DNA of 64,000 nt, taken from NCBI RefSeq assembly GCF_003002925.1, contig NZ_PVTK01000001.1, forward strand, positions 124,001-188,000. The letters run 5' to 3'. The position numbers were made by a program, and so were the translations under genes. Under the pieces are notes generated by a model. That model searched no databases and was not told the DNA's origin. It was given only the letters and a program-made list of their open reading frames with translations. Every line of letters begins with the position of its first letter. The stretch's first letter is position 1. Positions 4,489 through 10,053 of this stretch are shown here, piece by piece. The stretch is from Vreelandella songnenensis. Lineage in GTDB: Bacteria; Pseudomonadota; Gammaproteobacteria; Pseudomonadales; Halomonadaceae.

Positions 4489-5060
4489 TGTTCAGGCGGA
4501 TCAGAAAGCGCGTCTGGCTGGCCGGGCTGGTCATTGCCCTCGGGGTGCTGCTGGTCTGGCTTGATCCGCGCAGCACGGATGAGCGGCCGGTCGATCCAGC
4601 GGCCCAGGCTGAGGAACCCGGCCACGTGCTGGAAAACGCCGAAATGACGCTTTTTGGCGAATCGGGTCGGGTCGAGCAGTCGCTGAAATCGCCGCTGCTG
4701 GTGTACATTCCCCAGCGCGCCACGGCCGAGGCTACCCAGCCCGTGGCCAGCCTTTACGACAACGAAGATCGTGAGTGGCTCGCCAATGCCGATGAAGGCA
4801 CGCTGAATACCGATACCCAGGCACTCACCCTTTCCGGTGATGCAAGGCTTCTAGCCCCCTCCGAGGGCTGGCAGCTGGATACTGACGAGTTGCATTACGA
4901 TGGCCTGGCGCGCCATGCCTGGAGTGAGGCGCCCGCACTGCTGCAACAGCCGCCCCAGCGCATGAGCGCTACGCGCATGGACGTCTGGCTGGATACCAGC
5001 CAGGTCCGCTTAACCGATAACGTACGCGGCCACCACCCGCCCGCGACACAGACCCCTTAG
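4488..5060 (+). CDS. lptC: LptC, inner-membrane-anchored LPS transport protein
   Basis: LptC is the single-pass protein that accepts LPS from LptB2FG and passes it to periplasmic LptA. The 190-residue product has an N-terminal membrane anchor (about residues 7-25, VWLAGLVIALGVLLVWL) and a periplasmic beta-jellyroll of the LptC/YrbK family. Recognisable parts are ENAEMTLFGESGRVEQSLKS and the late DELHYDGLARHAWSEAP. Sequence identity in this family is low, so the call leans on topology, size and position between kdsC and lptA. An 8-nt gap precedes lptA. Confidence 0.92.
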   Translation: MFRRIRKRVWLAGLVIALGVLLVWLDPRSTDERPVDPAAQAEEPGHVLENAEMTLFGESGRVEQSLKSPLLVYIPQRATAEATQPVASLYDNEDREWLANADEGTLNTDTQALTLSGDARLLAPSEGWQLDTDELHYDGLARHAWSEAPALLQQPPQRMSATRMDVWLDTSQVRLTDNVRGHHPPATQTP

Positions 5061-5068
5061 GAGTCGCT

Positions 5069-5560
5069 ATGAAAGCTCTATTTCGCACCGCGCTTTTCGC
5101 CCTGGCGGTGCCGCTCTCGGCAGCGGCCCAGACAAGCCAGGCCCCGGTTGAAGTGGAAGCCGACCGGCTGGACCTTGACCAGCGCGCCGGCACTGCGGTC
5201 TATTCCGGCAATGTCGATATCCGTCAGGGTGAGATGCAGCTTCGCGGTGAGCGCGTTGAAATTCAACGCAATGACGCCGGTGAGCTCTCGCTGGTGACAG
5301 CGACTGGCGAGCGCGCCTACCTGCGCAACCAGCAGCAGGGACAGGAAACGCCTATCGAAGGCTGGGCACGTCGGGTGATCTATCACGTGGCGGAGCGTCG
5401 CGTCGAGCTTATCGATCAGGCCGAACTGATTCAGGGCGGGGACACGTTCAACGGTGGACGCCTTGAGTACTTCCTTGATCGCGAAGTGGTTCAGGCACGC
5501 TCGGATGTCAGCGGCAGCGAGCCGCAGCGTATTCGCATGACACTTCAGCCAGCGCAATAA
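5069..5560 (+). CDS. lptA: LptA, periplasmic LPS bridge protein
   Basis: LptA polymerises in the periplasm as the bridge carrying LPS from LptC to the outer-membrane LptD. The 163-residue precursor starts with a signal peptide (MKALFRTALFALAVPLSAAAQ, cleavage near residue 20). The OstA-like jellyroll follows, starting PVEVEADRLDLDQRAGTAVYSG, which is the conserved entry strand of the family. Further strand pairs are seen around GEMQLRGERVEI and IQGGDTFNGGRLEYFLD. AGGAG lies upstream of the ATG. It sits directly between lptC and lptB. Confidence 0.96.
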   Translation: MKALFRTALFALAVPLSAAAQTSQAPVEVEADRLDLDQRAGTAVYSGNVDIRQGEMQLRGERVEIQRNDAGELSLVTATGERAYLRNQQQGQETPIEGWARRVIYHVAERRVELIDQAELIQGGDTFNGGRLEYFLDREVVQARSDVSGSEPQRIRMTLQPAQ

Positions 5561-5572
5561 CAGGAGCGGTCG

Positions 5573-6322
5573 ATGGCTACTGCGGAATCAGCGCCGATTA
5601 AAACCCTCTATGCCAAGCATCTGGCCAAGAGCTACAAGCGTCGCCGGGTGGTTCAGGATATCAGCCTGGAGATTGCCCAGGGCAGCGTCGTAGGCCTCCT
5701 GGGCCCCAACGGCGCTGGCAAGACGACCTCTTTTTACATGATCGTGGGGCTGGTCAAGTCAGATGCTGGTACCGTCAGCATCGATGAGCTGGACCTTACC
5801 CGCGCGCCCATGCACGAACGCGCCATGGCCGGTATTGGCTACCTGCCTCAGGAAGCCTCGATCTTTCGCAAGCTCTCGGTGGCCGACAACATCATGGCTA
5901 TCCTGGAAACGCGCAAGGAGCTGGATGGTGCCGGACGCGAGCAGCGCCTGGAAAGCCTGCTGGAAGATTTTCACATCACCCATATTCGCGACAACCTGGG
6001 CATGAGCCTGTCAGGTGGCGAGCGGCGGCGGGTCGAGATTGCCCGCTCACTGGCCACAGAGCCTGCCTTCATTCTGCTCGATGAGCCGTTTGCCGGGGTA
6101 GATCCCATTTCAGTCGGTGAGATCAAGAGCATTATCCGGGCACTTAAAAAGCGCCATATCGGCGTGCTGATCACTGACCATAACGTTCGGGAAACGCTGG
6201 ATATCTGTGACGTTGCCTATATTGTTGGCGACGGGCATATCATTGCCGGCGGAAGCCCCGAAACCATCCTGAACAACCAGAAAGTCAGAGAGGTTTATCT
6301 GGGCGCCGATTTCCGTCTTTAA
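5573..6322 (+). CDS. lptB: LptB, ATPase of the LPS export ABC transporter
   Basis: LptB powers extraction of LPS from the inner membrane with LptF and LptG, which are not encoded in this window. The 249-residue protein has Walker [10 protein letters not shown] (44-52), the Q-loop region [19 protein letters not shown] characteristic of LptB, signature [16 protein letters not shown], Walker [14 protein letters not shown] and switch His in LITDHNV. AGGAG precedes the start 12 nt after lptA. Downstream is a 105-nt spacer before rpoN that carries its own promoter candidate. Confidence 0.97.
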
Positions 6323-6351
6323 ACAGTGACCTGCAGCAAAATTATTATCAA

Positions 6352-6367
6352 TGGCATGCTTATTGCA
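6352..6367 (+). promoter_or_regulatory. Candidate sigma-54 (RpoN) promoter upstream of rpoN
   Basis: TGGCATGCTTATTGCA matches the sigma-54 consensus TGGCACG-N4-TTGCW with a single mismatch (T for C at the sixth base). The invariant GG and GC pairs are separated by exactly 10 nt. Transcription would start near 6379, about 50 nt before the rpoN ATG. Short palindromes CATGATCATG (6374-6383) and CACTAGTG (6389-6396) lie just downstream. Seen by eye; there is no evidence for an activator site. Confidence 0.6.
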
Positions 6368-6427
6368 CTTGCACATGATCATGACTCGCACTAGTGTGAA
6401 GCTTTCCGATTAACGAGTGGTTCTCAG

Positions 6428-7846
6428 ATGGTCATGAAAGCTTCTCTTCAATTGCGTATCGGCACGCAGCTGACCATGACACCCCAGCTGCAGCAGGCCA
6501 TTGCTCTGCTGCAGCTCTCCACATTGGATCTGCGCCAGGAAATTCAGCAGGCGCTGGATGCCAACCCGATGCTGGAGCAGGAAGACGAATTCGGCGAGCA
6601 GGCCGCCGTTGAACCGCAGGAAGCGGAGTGGTCAGAGAGTATCCCCACCGAACTCTCGGTGGATAGCGACTGGTCAGATACCTACCAGGACATGCCAAGC
6701 GCGGCGGGCAGTGGCAGCGATGGCCCCGATTTCGAACGCCAGGCCGCCGGCCAGAGCCTTTACGGGCATCTGCTCTGGCAACTCGCCATGACTGATTTCA
6801 ACGTCCGTGAGCAGCTGGTGGCGGAAAGCCTGATCGATGCGCTCGATGCCAACGGCTACCTTACGCAGCCGCTCAACGATATTCGCGACGGTTTACGCGC
6901 CCAGGGTCTGGACGGCCTCAATCAGCGCGAGATGGAAACCATCTTGCTGCGCCTGCAGCAGTTTGAGCCTACCGGAGTATTCGCTCGCGACCTGCGCGAA
7001 TGCCTGATGCTGCAGTTGGCAACCCTGCCTGAAGACACACCCCTGCTGGTTCCCGCCAAGCGTCTGGTACGTCAGTTCCTGGAAGCGCTGGGTAAAAACG
7101 ACATGCGTCTTCTGAAGCGTCGTCTTGGGCTGGATGACGAGCAGCTCGAGGATGTCATCCATCTGATTCGCAGCCTGGACCCGCGCCCCGGCAGCGCCTA
7201 CGGCCCTACCGACGACAGCTACATCACGCCGGATCTCGTGGTACGTCACGACAACGAAGGCTGGCATCTGGAGCTCAACCCTGACGCCCTGCCGCGGCTG
7301 CGCATCCAGCCCGACTACGCCAGTCTGATCAAGCGCGCCGACAAGAGTCAGGACAACCAGTTCCTGAAAGAACATCTGCAGGAGGCGCGCTGGCTGATCA
7401 AGAGCCTTTCCAGCCGCAACGATACCCTGCTGCGCGTGGGCCGGGAGATTGTCACCCGTCAGATCGGCTTTCTTGAGCATGGTGAAGAAGCCATGAAACC
7501 GCTGATTCTGGCGGATATCGCCGAAGCCGTTGAAATGCACGAATCGACCATTTCACGTGTTACCACACAAAAGTATATTCATACGCCGCGTGGCGTGTTC
7601 GAACTCAAATATTTCTTCTCCAGCCAGATCAGCGGCCAGGATGGTGGCGACAGCCACTCGAGTACCGCCATTCGTGCCCGGCTGAAAAAGCTGATTCAGG
7701 ACGAGCCGCCAGGCAAACCGCTTTCAGACAGCCGACTGGTAACGCTACTCGAAGAAGGCGGCATTGCCGTTGCCCGCCGTACCGTAGCCAAATACCGCGA
7801 GTCGCTGGGCATTCCCTCATCGAGCGAGCGTCGCCGTTTGAGATAG
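6428..7846 (+). CDS. rpoN: RpoN, RNA polymerase sigma-54 factor
   Basis: This is the sigma-54 subunit that directs RNA polymerase to -24/-12 promoters under enhancer-binding ATPases. The 472-residue protein has the Gln/Leu-rich activator-interacting region I (LTMTPQLQQAIALLQLSTLD), an acidic linker (about 55-105), the core-binding domain, the helix-turn-helix region (IAEAVEMHESTISRVTTQKY) and the RpoN box ARRTVAKYRE (449-458) that reads the -24 element. Met at 6434 (MKASLQL) resembles the usual family N-terminus and may be the true start. It heads the rpoN-hpf-ptsN-rapZ-ptsO order conserved in Gammaproteobacteria. Confidence 0.98.
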   Translation: MVMKASLQLRIGTQLTMTPQLQQAIALLQLSTLDLRQEIQQALDANPMLEQEDEFGEQAAVEPQEAEWSESIPTELSVDSDWSDTYQDMPSAAGSGSDGPDFERQAAGQSLYGHLLWQLAMTDFNVREQLVAESLIDALDANGYLTQPLNDIRDGLRAQGLDGLNQREMETILLRLQQFEPTGVFARDLRECLMLQLATLPEDTPLLVPAKRLVRQFLEALGKNDMRLLKRRLGLDDEQLEDVIHLIRSLDPRPGSAYGPTDDSYITPDLVVRHDNEGWHLELNPDALPRLRIQPDYASLIKRADKSQDNQFLKEHLQEARWLIKSLSSRNDTLLRVGREIVTRQIGFLEHGEEAMKPLILADIAEAVEMHESTISRVTTQKYIHTPRGVFELKYFFSSQISGQDGGDSHSSTAIRARLKKLIQDEPPGKPLSDSRLVTLLEEGGIAVARRTVAKYRESLGIPSSSERRRLR

Positions 7847-7897
7847 CCATTTAAAGCAGACGCTTGAAATAGAAACGCCAAAACTCGCCCTCAGGGC

Positions 7898-7925
7898 TTT
7901 GCAATAGCGTAAAAAGGGTTACAAT
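7898..7925 (+). promoter_or_regulatory. Candidate sigma-70 promoter for hpf
   Basis: A -35-like TTTGCA (7898-7903) or TTGCAA (7899-7904) precedes a good -10, TACAAT (7920-7925), with 15-16 nt spacing. The start would fall near 7932, 27 nt before the hpf ATG at 7959. This would let hpf-ptsN-rapZ-ptsO be expressed apart from rpoN. Judged by eye only. Confidence 0.45.
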
Positions 7926-7958
7926 CGAAATACAGTCCGATGGATAAGGAGCACGTCA

Positions 7959-8267
7959 ATGCAAGTAAATATCACTGGTCATCACGTAGAACTGACTGAC
8001 GCCTTGCGTGACTATGTTAATGAAAAGCTTGAACGCGTCGAACGTCATTACGACAACATCACTACGGTACAAGTAACCTTATCCATAGAGAAGGAGCGTC
8101 AGCAGGCGGCGTGCACCCTTCACGCGGCAGGCGCCGATCTGCATGCCGACGCCGAAGATGTCGACATGTATGCCGCTATCGACGCTCTGGCCGATAAGAT
8201 CGATCGTCAACTCGTCAAGCACAAGGAAAAAGCACAAGCCCGCGCCCAAGGCGCTGGCGTGCGTTAA
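7959..8267 (+). CDS. hpf: Short-form ribosome hibernation promoting factor
   Basis: HPF binds the 30S decoding region and promotes formation of inactive 100S ribosomes in stationary phase. The 102-residue protein is the short form, consisting only of the S30AE beta-alpha-beta-beta-beta-alpha domain (MQVNITGHHVELTDALRDYV, then IEKERQQAACTLHAAG and DVDMYAAIDALADKIDRQL). It ends in a basic tail (KHKEKAQARAQG). It lacks the C-terminal dimerisation domain of long HPF. AAGGAGC lies 7 nt before the ATG. The 5-nt gap to ptsN suggests co-translation. Confidence 0.96.
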   Translation: MQVNITGHHVELTDALRDYVNEKLERVERHYDNITTVQVTLSIEKERQQAACTLHAAGADLHADAEDVDMYAAIDALADKIDRQLVKHKEKAQARAQGAGVR

Positions 8268-8271
8268 TTCA

Positions 8272-8742
8272 ATGACGTTGGAAACCATTCTCCCCCCGGA
8301 GCGCGTGCTTTATGACGTACCCGGGGGCAGCAAAAAACGGGTGCTGGAGTTTTTCAGCACCTTTATTGCGCAAAATACACCCAGTCTGGATAGCCAGGAA
8401 GTCTTCAGCCGTCTGATTGGCCGCGAGCGTCTGGGCAGTACGGGCATCGGCAACGGTGTTGCCATTCCCCACGCGCGCAGCCCTCACTGCGTAACGCCTA
8501 TCGCCGGTTTTCTGAAGCTGTCCGAGCCGGTCGATTTTGATGCGATCGATGGCGATCCGGTCGATCTGGTGTTCGTGCTTCTGGTACCGGAAGAAGCGGA
8601 TGATACGCATCTTTCGCTGCTTGGGCAGGTAGCCACCATCATGAACGATGCGCAGACGCGTCAGGCCTTGCGAAAAACCGGCAGCCAGCGTGAGCTACTT
8701 GACCTGCTTGCCAGCAAGATTCGTGAACAGGCAATACCGTAA
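8272..8742 (+). CDS. ptsN: PtsN, EIIA component of the nitrogen PTS
   Basis: PtsN is the terminal phosphoryl acceptor of the PTS-Ntr chain (PtsP to NPr to PtsN) and acts by binding regulatory targets such as potassium transport systems. The 156-residue protein is a PTS EIIA type-2 domain. The phosphorylated His is in GNGVAIPHAR (His67), and DLVFVLLVPEEADDTHLSLL follows. The reading frame stays open upstream, but the ATG at 8272 (MTLETILPPERVL) fits the family length. The partner NPr is encoded at 9784; PtsP is not in this window. Confidence 0.96.
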   Translation: MTLETILPPERVLYDVPGGSKKRVLEFFSTFIAQNTPSLDSQEVFSRLIGRERLGSTGIGNGVAIPHARSPHCVTPIAGFLKLSEPVDFDAIDGDPVDLVFVLLVPEEADDTHLSLLGQVATIMNDAQTRQALRKTGSQRELLDLLASKIREQAIP

Positions 8743-8808
8743 CCTACTCGCACAGCAGCGTATCTTCTCGCTTTCATCCCCTCATGCTTTTATGCAAAGA
8801 GAGTCACT

Positions 8809-9741
8809 ATGCAACTGGTGATCATCAGCGGCCGCTCAGGGTCGGGCAAGTCCATTGCCTTACAGGCGCTTGAAGATATCGGCTACTACGCTATCGACAA
8901 CCTGCCCGCCATGCTGCTGGGATCGCTGGTTGATGAACTCTGTGATGAAGGTGGACGTACGCACCTTGCGGTAAGTATTGATGCGCGCAATCTGCCGGGT
9001 GCACTTGAGCGCTTGCCCGTACTTCTTGAAGAGCTGCGCCAGCGCCCGATCGATTGCCAGGTCATCTATCTGACCACCGATGCCCGCATTCTTCTGGAGC
9101 GTTACTCGGCCACGCGGCGGCGCCACCCGCTGACCCGGGGCAGCCACATGACACTTGAAGAGGCGATTACCAAGGAAGAAGAGACGCTCAACGAAATACG
9201 CGATCTTGCCGACTTGATGATCGATACCTCGCGGCTTTCAGTCCACGATCTGCGTCGTCGCATTACCGATCAGGTAGCTCACCAGCGTAAGGACCAGCTG
9301 ACGCTGACCTTCGAATCCTTTGGCTACAAGCGTGGCGTGCCCATGGATGCCGACCTGGTATTCGACGTACGCTGCCTGCCCAACCCCTACTGGGATCCGA
9401 CGCTGCGTCAATATACTGGCCGTGACGCCACCATCATCGCCTTCCTGCGTGGCTACCCGATTGTCGAAGATATGACCCAGGATATTCAGGCGCTGCTGGA
9501 ACGCTGGCTGCCGGCTTATCAGAACAGCCAGCGAAGCTACATGACCGTCGCAATTGGCTGTACGGGTGGGCAGCACCGTTCGGTGTACGTAGCCGAGCAG
9601 CTGGCCCAGGCGCTGGTACCGCAGATAGGCGATGTGCAGTTGCGCCATCGTGAACTCGGGTTGCAATACACGCTTGGCGGCTCTCAGACAGCACCGACGG
9701 ATATCGCGACACTTGCCGAGCAGAAATCCGGCATCCCCTGA
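8809..9741 (+). CDS. rapZ: RapZ, nucleotide-binding RNA adaptor
   Basis: In enterobacteria RapZ binds the small RNAs GlmY and GlmZ and guides RNase E to GlmZ, tuning glucosamine 6-phosphate synthesis. The 310-residue protein has the N-terminal P-loop GRSGSGKS (8-15) and a characteristic [11 protein letters not shown] segment. The C-terminal domain holds [15 protein letters not shown] and [14 protein letters not shown], which belong to the RNA-binding half. Whether GlmY/GlmZ-type RNAs exist in this organism cannot be seen here, so the exact target is inferred from the family. It lies between ptsN and ptsO, as usual. Confidence 0.96.
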
Positions 9742-9783: not shown

Positions 9784-10053
9784 GTGCCAGAAAGAACCTT
9801 AACCCTTACCAATCAGCGTGGTTTGCACGCCCGCGCCGCCACTAAACTCGTCACCTGTGCGCAGCAGTTCGACTCCCGGGTGTACGTCTACAAGCAGACC
9901 CAGAAGGCCGACGCCGCCAACATCATGTCGCTTCTCATGCTGGCGGCCCCCTGCGGCACGGTATTGACCGTCGAAGCCGTCGGCGATGACGCCGAAGCGG
10001 CGCTGGATGCGCTGGAGGCACTCTTCAAGGCCCGTTTCGACGAAGACGCCTGA
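9784..10053 (+). CDS. ptsO: NPr, HPr-like phosphocarrier of the nitrogen PTS
   Basis: NPr relays phosphate from PtsP to PtsN. The 89-residue protein has the PTS-HPr fold with the phosphorylated His15 in LTNQRGLHARAATKL and the helix ADAANIMSLLMLA, which resembles NPr more than sugar-PTS HPr. I place the start at GTG 9784: AAGGA lies about 8 nt upstream and the length then matches the family. An ATG further up at 9751 has no ribosome-binding site. SixA, encoded at 26264-26746, is a phosphohistidine phosphatase whose known E. coli target is this type of protein. Confidence 0.94.
   Translation: MPERTLTLTNQRGLHARAATKLVTCAQQFDSRVYVYKQTQKADAANIMSLLMLAAPCGTVLTVEAVGDDAEAALDALEALFKARFDEDA

Follow-up and report, generated by a model that had tools for sequence, protein, structure and literature searches.

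A conserved candidate sigma-54 site adjoins a putative sigma-70-type promoter upstream of rpoN in Halomonadaceae

The gene for sigma-54 (rpoN) in the window, the 64,000-nucleotide stretch of Vreelandella songnenensis DNA analysed here, is preceded by the sequence TGGCATGCTTATTGCA, which conservation among relatives confirms as a genuine, strongly conserved candidate sigma-54 (-24/-12) site. This site adjoins a conserved -35/-10-like pair, and we think it reasonably probable that TGGCATGCTTATTGCA is an autoregulatory site at which a silent sigma-54 complex would occlude the neighbouring sigma-70-type promoter, resulting in negative autoregulation of rpoN. We infer from comparative sequence data that RpoN binds here, that the -35/-10 pair is active, that the net effect is repression, and that control runs in this direction. 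The relevant features, in window coordinates, are as follows.

5573 to 6322, forward strand: lptB, an ABC transporter ATPase gene and the upstream neighbour of rpoN (gene call and domain match)
6334 to 6349, forward strand: CAGCAAAATTATTATC, a possible decayed second sigma-54 site 18 nt upstream of the main site (5 of 11 consensus positions; its status as a relic is conjectural)
6352 to 6367, forward strand: TGGCATGCTTATTGCA, the candidate sigma-54 (-24/-12) site, with GG at 6353-6354 and GC at 6365-6366 (sequence and conservation)
6369 to 6374, forward strand: TTGCAC, a conserved -35-like element (by conservation; 3 of 6 letters of TTGACA)
6392 to 6397, forward strand: TAGTGT, a conserved -10-like element 17 nt after the -35-like element (3 of 6 letters of TATAAT)
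6408 to 6427, forward strand: GATTAACGAGTGGTTCTCAG, a strongly conserved leader immediately 5' of the rpoN ATG (1.87 bits per column over positions -19 to -1)
6428 to 7846, forward strand: rpoN, encoding sigma-54 (Sigma54_AID, CBD and DBD matches all above cut-off)
7898 to 7925, forward strand: TTTGCA-16-TACAAT, a separate, conserved sigma-70-type promoter of hpf (promoter scan; pattern in 28 of 36 genus loci)
7959 to 8267, forward strand: hpf (Ribosomal_S30AE; gene call and domain match)
8272 to 8742, forward strand: ptsN (PTS EIIA type 2; domain match, start codon set by eye)
8809 to 9741, forward strand: rapZ (gene call and domain match)
9784 to 10053, forward strand: ptsO (HPr-like; domain match, start codon set by eye)

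The predicted sigma-54 site is located between the end of lptB (6322) and the ATG start codon of rpoN (6428). A preliminary description of this region had reported a -24/-12 motif at these coordinates with GG-N10-GC spacing, one mismatch from consensus and about 60 nt ahead of rpoN, and all of these details are borne out. Specifically, TGGCATGCTTATTGCA differs at one position from TGGCACGNNNNTTGCW and at none from TGGCAYNNNNNTTGCW, its GG-N10-GC core is flanked as in TGGCAY...TTGCW, and 60 nt separate the site from the rpoN start codon. A transcript driven from this site by sigma-54 would be expected to start near position 6378. All three domains of RpoN (activator-interacting, core-binding and DNA-binding) are present in the protein encoded in the window, and a search of the genome for RpoN returned one match. 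Among the 60 loci examined, lptB always directly precedes rpoN, with a gap of 103-365 nt, and downstream of rpoN the genes hpf, ptsN, rapZ and ptsO follow in this order.

Sequence alone was insufficient to distinguish this site from chance occurrences. In the window, 16 matches with two or fewer mismatches were found, compared to 16.7 expected, and in the whole genome TGGCAYNNNNNTTGCW matches six times, compared to eight for the reversed control, so that neither test singles out the rpoN site. Two of the six genomic matches reside inside genes and four precede genes, which are rpoN, the type VI secretion gene hcp, and genes for an amino-acid transporter binding protein and a permease (names other than rpoN were given by eye from reading frames). 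The latter three consensus sites (each at positions 1501-1516 of its locus; L184, L182 and L183, respectively) likely mark hcp, the binding protein gene and the permease gene as members of the sigma-54 regulon.

We therefore rely on conservation, which, with controls near zero, indicates that TGGCATGCTTATTGCA is no accident. We compiled 120 rpoN upstream regions (L001-L060 and L111-L170), drawn from the best 30 of 80 named loci and from 90 of 151 family genomes, and 108 of these are distinct over 130 nt. When a site is defined as GG-N10-GC with at least 10 of 11 consensus positions no more than 150 nt from the rpoN start, 106 of the 108 distinct upstreams carry one, and 100 of the 108 score 11/11. 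By comparison, shuffled sequences yield 0.34 sites on average, the reverse strand yields one in 108, and other 150-nt tiles from the same loci yield 11 in 3478. The GG/GC core, whose presence in close relatives had been proposed as a check, is thus kept. The two misses, L150 and L153, are both divergent members of the window's genus (2 of its 25 distinct upstreams), and L153 retains the sigma-70-type pair. In 20 additional family genomes, mainly from divergent genera, the site precedes rpoN in 12. Absences there fall in genus g5 (five of five genomes), genus g24 (one of one) and genus g3 (two of eight). The g5 loci (L325-L329) have an lptB-rpoN gap of only about 25 nt. Overall, sampling covered all 24 genera in the family search, and the site is found in at least one genome of 22.

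Immediately downstream of the site, the elements TTGCAC and TAGTGT read as a putative sigma-70-type promoter, whose transcript would start near position 6404. Information content was calculated from the 26 of 32 genus upstreams that align without gaps. In these, the 5' flank (1.03 bits per column) and the 17-nt spacer (1.14) vary, while the sigma-54 site (1.92), TTGCAC (1.83) and the -10-like element, TAGGGT or TAGTGT (1.88), are close to invariant. Across the compiled upstreams, TTGNNN-17-TANNNT follows or overlaps the sigma-54 site in 101 of 106 upstreams, and TAGGGT is the commonest form of the -10-like element (54 of 101). A stricter pattern, TTGCAN-17-TANNNT, is present in 92 of the 108 upstreams, compared to 2 of 4008 control tiles. 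This spacing preference is sharp, since TTGCAN and TANNNT separated by 13-16 or 18-21 nt are found in zero to two of the 108 upstreams. Counts rise again at 22 nt (7) and 23 nt (31), where the TTGCA of the -12 box probably serves as the first element.

The offset of the -35 element from the -12 G, which is 4 nt in the window (6365 to 6369), measures 4-5 nt across the window's genus and 10-14 or 22-24 nt in most others, while four upstreams have merged elements at a distance of -2. This distance varies even within genera g4 and g20, and both parts are retained. The hexamers in the window are weak, each matching its consensus at three of six positions, and were not called by a stock promoter scan. 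The same scan did call TAAACA-17-TATTAT at 6320-6348, but this candidate falls in the poorly conserved 5' flank and was set aside.

Sigma-54 holoenzyme is established to bind DNA but to open it only with an activator (passages of PMC4496707). We propose that RpoN polymerase would bind TGGCATGCTTATTGCA as a closed complex that cannot start transcription by itself. The bound complex would cover the -35 element (6369-6374) and extend in the direction of the -10 element (6392-6397), thereby excluding the housekeeping polymerase. For this reach at rpoN, we assume a footprint of the size generally attributed to sigma-54 complexes, and with footprints of such sizes every distance class (-2, 4-5, 10-14 and 22-24 nt) should keep the two polymerases in conflict. 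More RpoN would mean more occlusion and hence less rpoN transcription, such that the level of sigma-54 would be held steady, and extra sites could raise occupancy.

The preliminary description had offered two functional readings, a self-driven promoter or a bound but silent site. Perhaps TGGCATGCTTATTGCA is a working sigma-54 promoter fired by NtrC or another activator ATPase, which would yield a second rpoN transcript and positive or dual autoregulation. The site is of consensus grade, with the orientation and distance appropriate for a promoter, and the genome yields ten matches to the activator ATPase domain, of which six are strong and one is NtrC above curated cut-offs. Passages of a genome survey report that sigma-54 promoters are enriched at rpoN in gamma-Proteobacteria and other classes, which the survey reads as autoregulation (PMC12316311). 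Likewise, passages on an ilvA deletion in Halomonas bluephagenesis describe rpoN and glnA mRNAs rising together (PMC13101641), although this co-rise could mean either activation or relief. We nevertheless consider a working promoter unlikely. A search for NtrC-like enhancers used a scored palindrome in the 180 nt upstream of the site, with glnA as a positive control and shuffled sequences for comparison. At rpoN, the best palindromes score 6-7 of 10 in all 36 genus loci, which is not above shuffles (68 of 360 shuffled rpoN regions reach at least 8/10), whereas glnA has a palindrome of 8-10 out of 10 in all 29 measurable genus loci (29 of 290 shuffled glnA regions reach at least 8/10). The glnA sigma-54 site scores 10/11 in 29 of 30 genus loci, and the window's rpoN site, at 11/11, is nearer to consensus. 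An earlier set of NtrC patterns gave 0 of 60 at rpoN but also missed glnA, and was replaced by the scored palindrome. Four-fold degenerate sites of lptB likewise reveal no conserved block in what is a coarse test (63 sites in all): conservation is 0.56 in the last 25 codons (4 sites) and 0.58 overall. Enhancers of other activators would be detectable only if well conserved. The palindrome and lptB results argue against control by NtrC and, less strongly, against control by other activators.

The glmY/glmZ sigma-54 promoter is known to work with an activator. Passages on glmY/glmZ of enterobacteria describe competing, overlapping sigma-54 and sigma-70 promoters (PMC3844500), a precedent that favours the working-promoter reading and that also resembles our proposal, in that two holoenzymes compete over one stretch of DNA. 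There, however, the promoters fully overlap (passages of PMC3844500), whereas the window has its boxes side by side (6352-6367 and 6369-6397) and no enhancer was seen; overlap is confined to the four family upstreams with a distance of -2.

The remaining possibility for a silent site, the one raised in the preliminary description, is that it would chiefly block transcription arriving from lptB instead of acting on a local promoter. Read-through is plausible, as a scan of 5000-9500, which includes the lptB-rpoN gap, called no forward terminator, and lptB sits immediately before rpoN in every one of the loci examined. Even so, this explanation seems improbable to us, since it leaves the 17-nt-spaced -35/-10-like pair in 101 of 106 upstreams unexplained. 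In contrast, that pair and the lack of a visible NtrC-like enhancer fit a silent site bound over an adjacent promoter. Of the two functional readings offered earlier, the self-driven promoter is thus disfavoured (no NtrC-like enhancer, no conserved lptB block, and a conserved sigma-70-type promoter directly 3'), and the bound but silent repressing site fits better, although its likelier target is the adjacent promoter rather than read-through from lptB. Several observations stand against occlusion, including the weak hexamers, the coarseness of the lptB test, the joint rise of rpoN and glnA mRNAs in H. bluephagenesis, and the absence of the site from some loci inside and outside the family.

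A related claim, that hpf, ptsN, rapZ and ptsO would depend on RpoN, is weakened. We found that hpf has its own conserved, putative sigma-70-type promoter at 7898-7925, and thus the run from rpoN to ptsO need not depend on the rpoN promoter. In the eight genus loci that lack the full hpf pattern, TACAAT is still visible; seven have TTTGCT as the -35 element, and in Halomonas sp. JB37 (L037) the stretch is displaced. In this last locus, short repeats resembling AAGTACAGTCC occupy part of the interval from the hpf promoter element to hpf itself.

Many family members carry more than one sigma-54 site before rpoN. When the site threshold is lowered to 8, the distinct upstreams yield 42 pairs of successive sites, 38 of them with a separation of exactly 18 nt. 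The doublet GGCAYN5TTGC-N4-GGCAYN5TTGC has 32 matches in the 151 family genomes, distributed over 9 of 24 genera, and all 32 reside 62-93 nt before rpoN on the same strand, while the reversed pattern has none. The window's own genome has no match to the doublet pattern. Its possible relic, CAGCAAAATTATTATC, lies at the corresponding offset, and in the closest relative (L002) this position is occupied by CAGCAAAATTATTGCC (7/11), but the -18 offset is not outstanding as an average over 68 single-site upstreams. Overlapping -24/-12 doublets would make little sense as two transcription starts, which would presumably interfere with one another and so argue further against a working promoter; they could, instead, raise occupancy. 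Direct doublets of fixed spacing also resemble operator arrays, and the GCA and TGC ends of each site are dyad-like, such that the site might be the operator of another DNA-binding protein that merely resembles a -24/-12 box and occurs in tandem copies. We regard this as highly improbable, as the sequence follows the sigma-54 consensus, which is found also before glnA, hcp and the amino-acid transporter gene of the same genome, and the gene behind the site is rpoN itself.

We also examined one genome per family from the remainder of the class. Of the 85 other genomes that have a match, 69 were used, and 68 usable rpoN upstreams were obtained. A site of at least 9/11 is found in 20 of the 68 (reverse strand 7, shuffles 1.1) and of at least 10/11 in 15 (reverse strand 4, shuffles 0.08), such that reverse-strand matches are not negligible at either threshold. 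The other 48 upstreams have no site at 9/11 or better. Together with the losses within the family, these absences indicate that the site is not needed everywhere. Six of the 20 outside-family sites sit exactly between NTGCAN and TANNNT elements spaced by 17 nt; the same nesting is seen in none of the 20 at spacings of 14, 15 or 18-21 and in one at 16. In 12 of the 20, a TANNNT starts 2 nt past the -12 C, but this is ambiguous, as glnA and hcp of the window's genome share that arrangement. Among named loci, two from Pseudomonas (L077 and L096) have GGCATATAAYTTGCT before rpoN, a GG-N10-GC with a TATAA-like stretch inside, and CGGCAAAGAACTTGCT or a close variant is present in 9 of the 11 loci titled Marinobacter. 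The nested sites and the Pseudomonas and Marinobacter cases suggest that the juxtaposition of a sigma-54 site and promoter elements is a recurrent feature of rpoN upstreams, with more than one arrangement of the parts. By eye, the Pseudomonas-type upstreams L077, L085, L089 and L096 share a conserved element, CTAGGCAAA, about 19 nt before the GG of the site.

A broader version of our proposal, which we put forward tentatively and consider possible though doubtful, is that sigma-54 evolved a switch devoted to repressing its own gene. The switch would consist of two -24/-12 sites, separated by 18 nt and exclusive to rpoN, which sigma-54 or its holoenzyme would bind with no need for an activator and which would shut the housekeeping promoter once a threshold concentration is reached. 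At least two gamma-proteobacterial geometries would exist, one with the site just 5' of the -35 element and another with the site nested between the -35 and -10 elements.

Feedback of rpoN on itself is already known elsewhere. RpoN binding upstream of rpoN in P. aeruginosa is reported by ChIP-seq in passages of PMC8855297, which also cite rpoN autoregulation in P. putida (Kohler, Alvarez and Harayama, 1994). Pseudomonas is thus similar to the present case both in this reported binding and in the GG-N10-GC before rpoN in L077 and L096. It differs in that the TATAA-like stretch lies inside the site, whereas Halomonadaceae have a -35/-10-like pair 3' of the site and many 18-nt doublets. The rpoN gene of R. 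leguminosarum is described as 'negatively autoregulated' in passages of PMC3538637, so that, as in our proposal, the gene limits its own expression. For Geobacter, tight control of RpoN expression is reported, in passages that describe no site (PMC2725144). Passages of seven other papers (PMC3616915, PMC7142073, PMC10482368, PMC4362757, PMC5427110, PMC8657755 and PMC10621929) contain nothing on rpoN self-control. The present case would extend such feedback to a new bacterial group, and the adjacent-promoter geometry and the doublet are its less expected parts.

Sigma-54 is usually viewed as a constant background against which activator ATPases set the targets. Stable RpoN levels are 'commonly assumed' (a passage of PMC7657599), and a conserved self-occluding site, if true, would explain this constancy. 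It would also provide a clear natural case of sigma-54 as a repressor, and a compact promoter for measuring competition between two types of polymerase. Self-control may matter for the engineering of Halomonas, where a bioplastic-yield study disrupted or overexpressed a set of genes that includes rpoN (passages of PMC13101641).

Two further observations concern neighbouring sequences. In five loci (L302, L303, L304, L309 and L310), the glnA sigma-54 site is followed at a distance of 44 nt by another sequence that resembles such a site, AGGCATAAGCCTTGCG. Finally, the leader GATTAACGAGTGGTTCTCAG, which comprises the 20 nt before the rpoN start, is nearly invariant in the genus and has no strong ribosome-binding sequence by eye; translational or small-RNA control of rpoN through this leader is possible.
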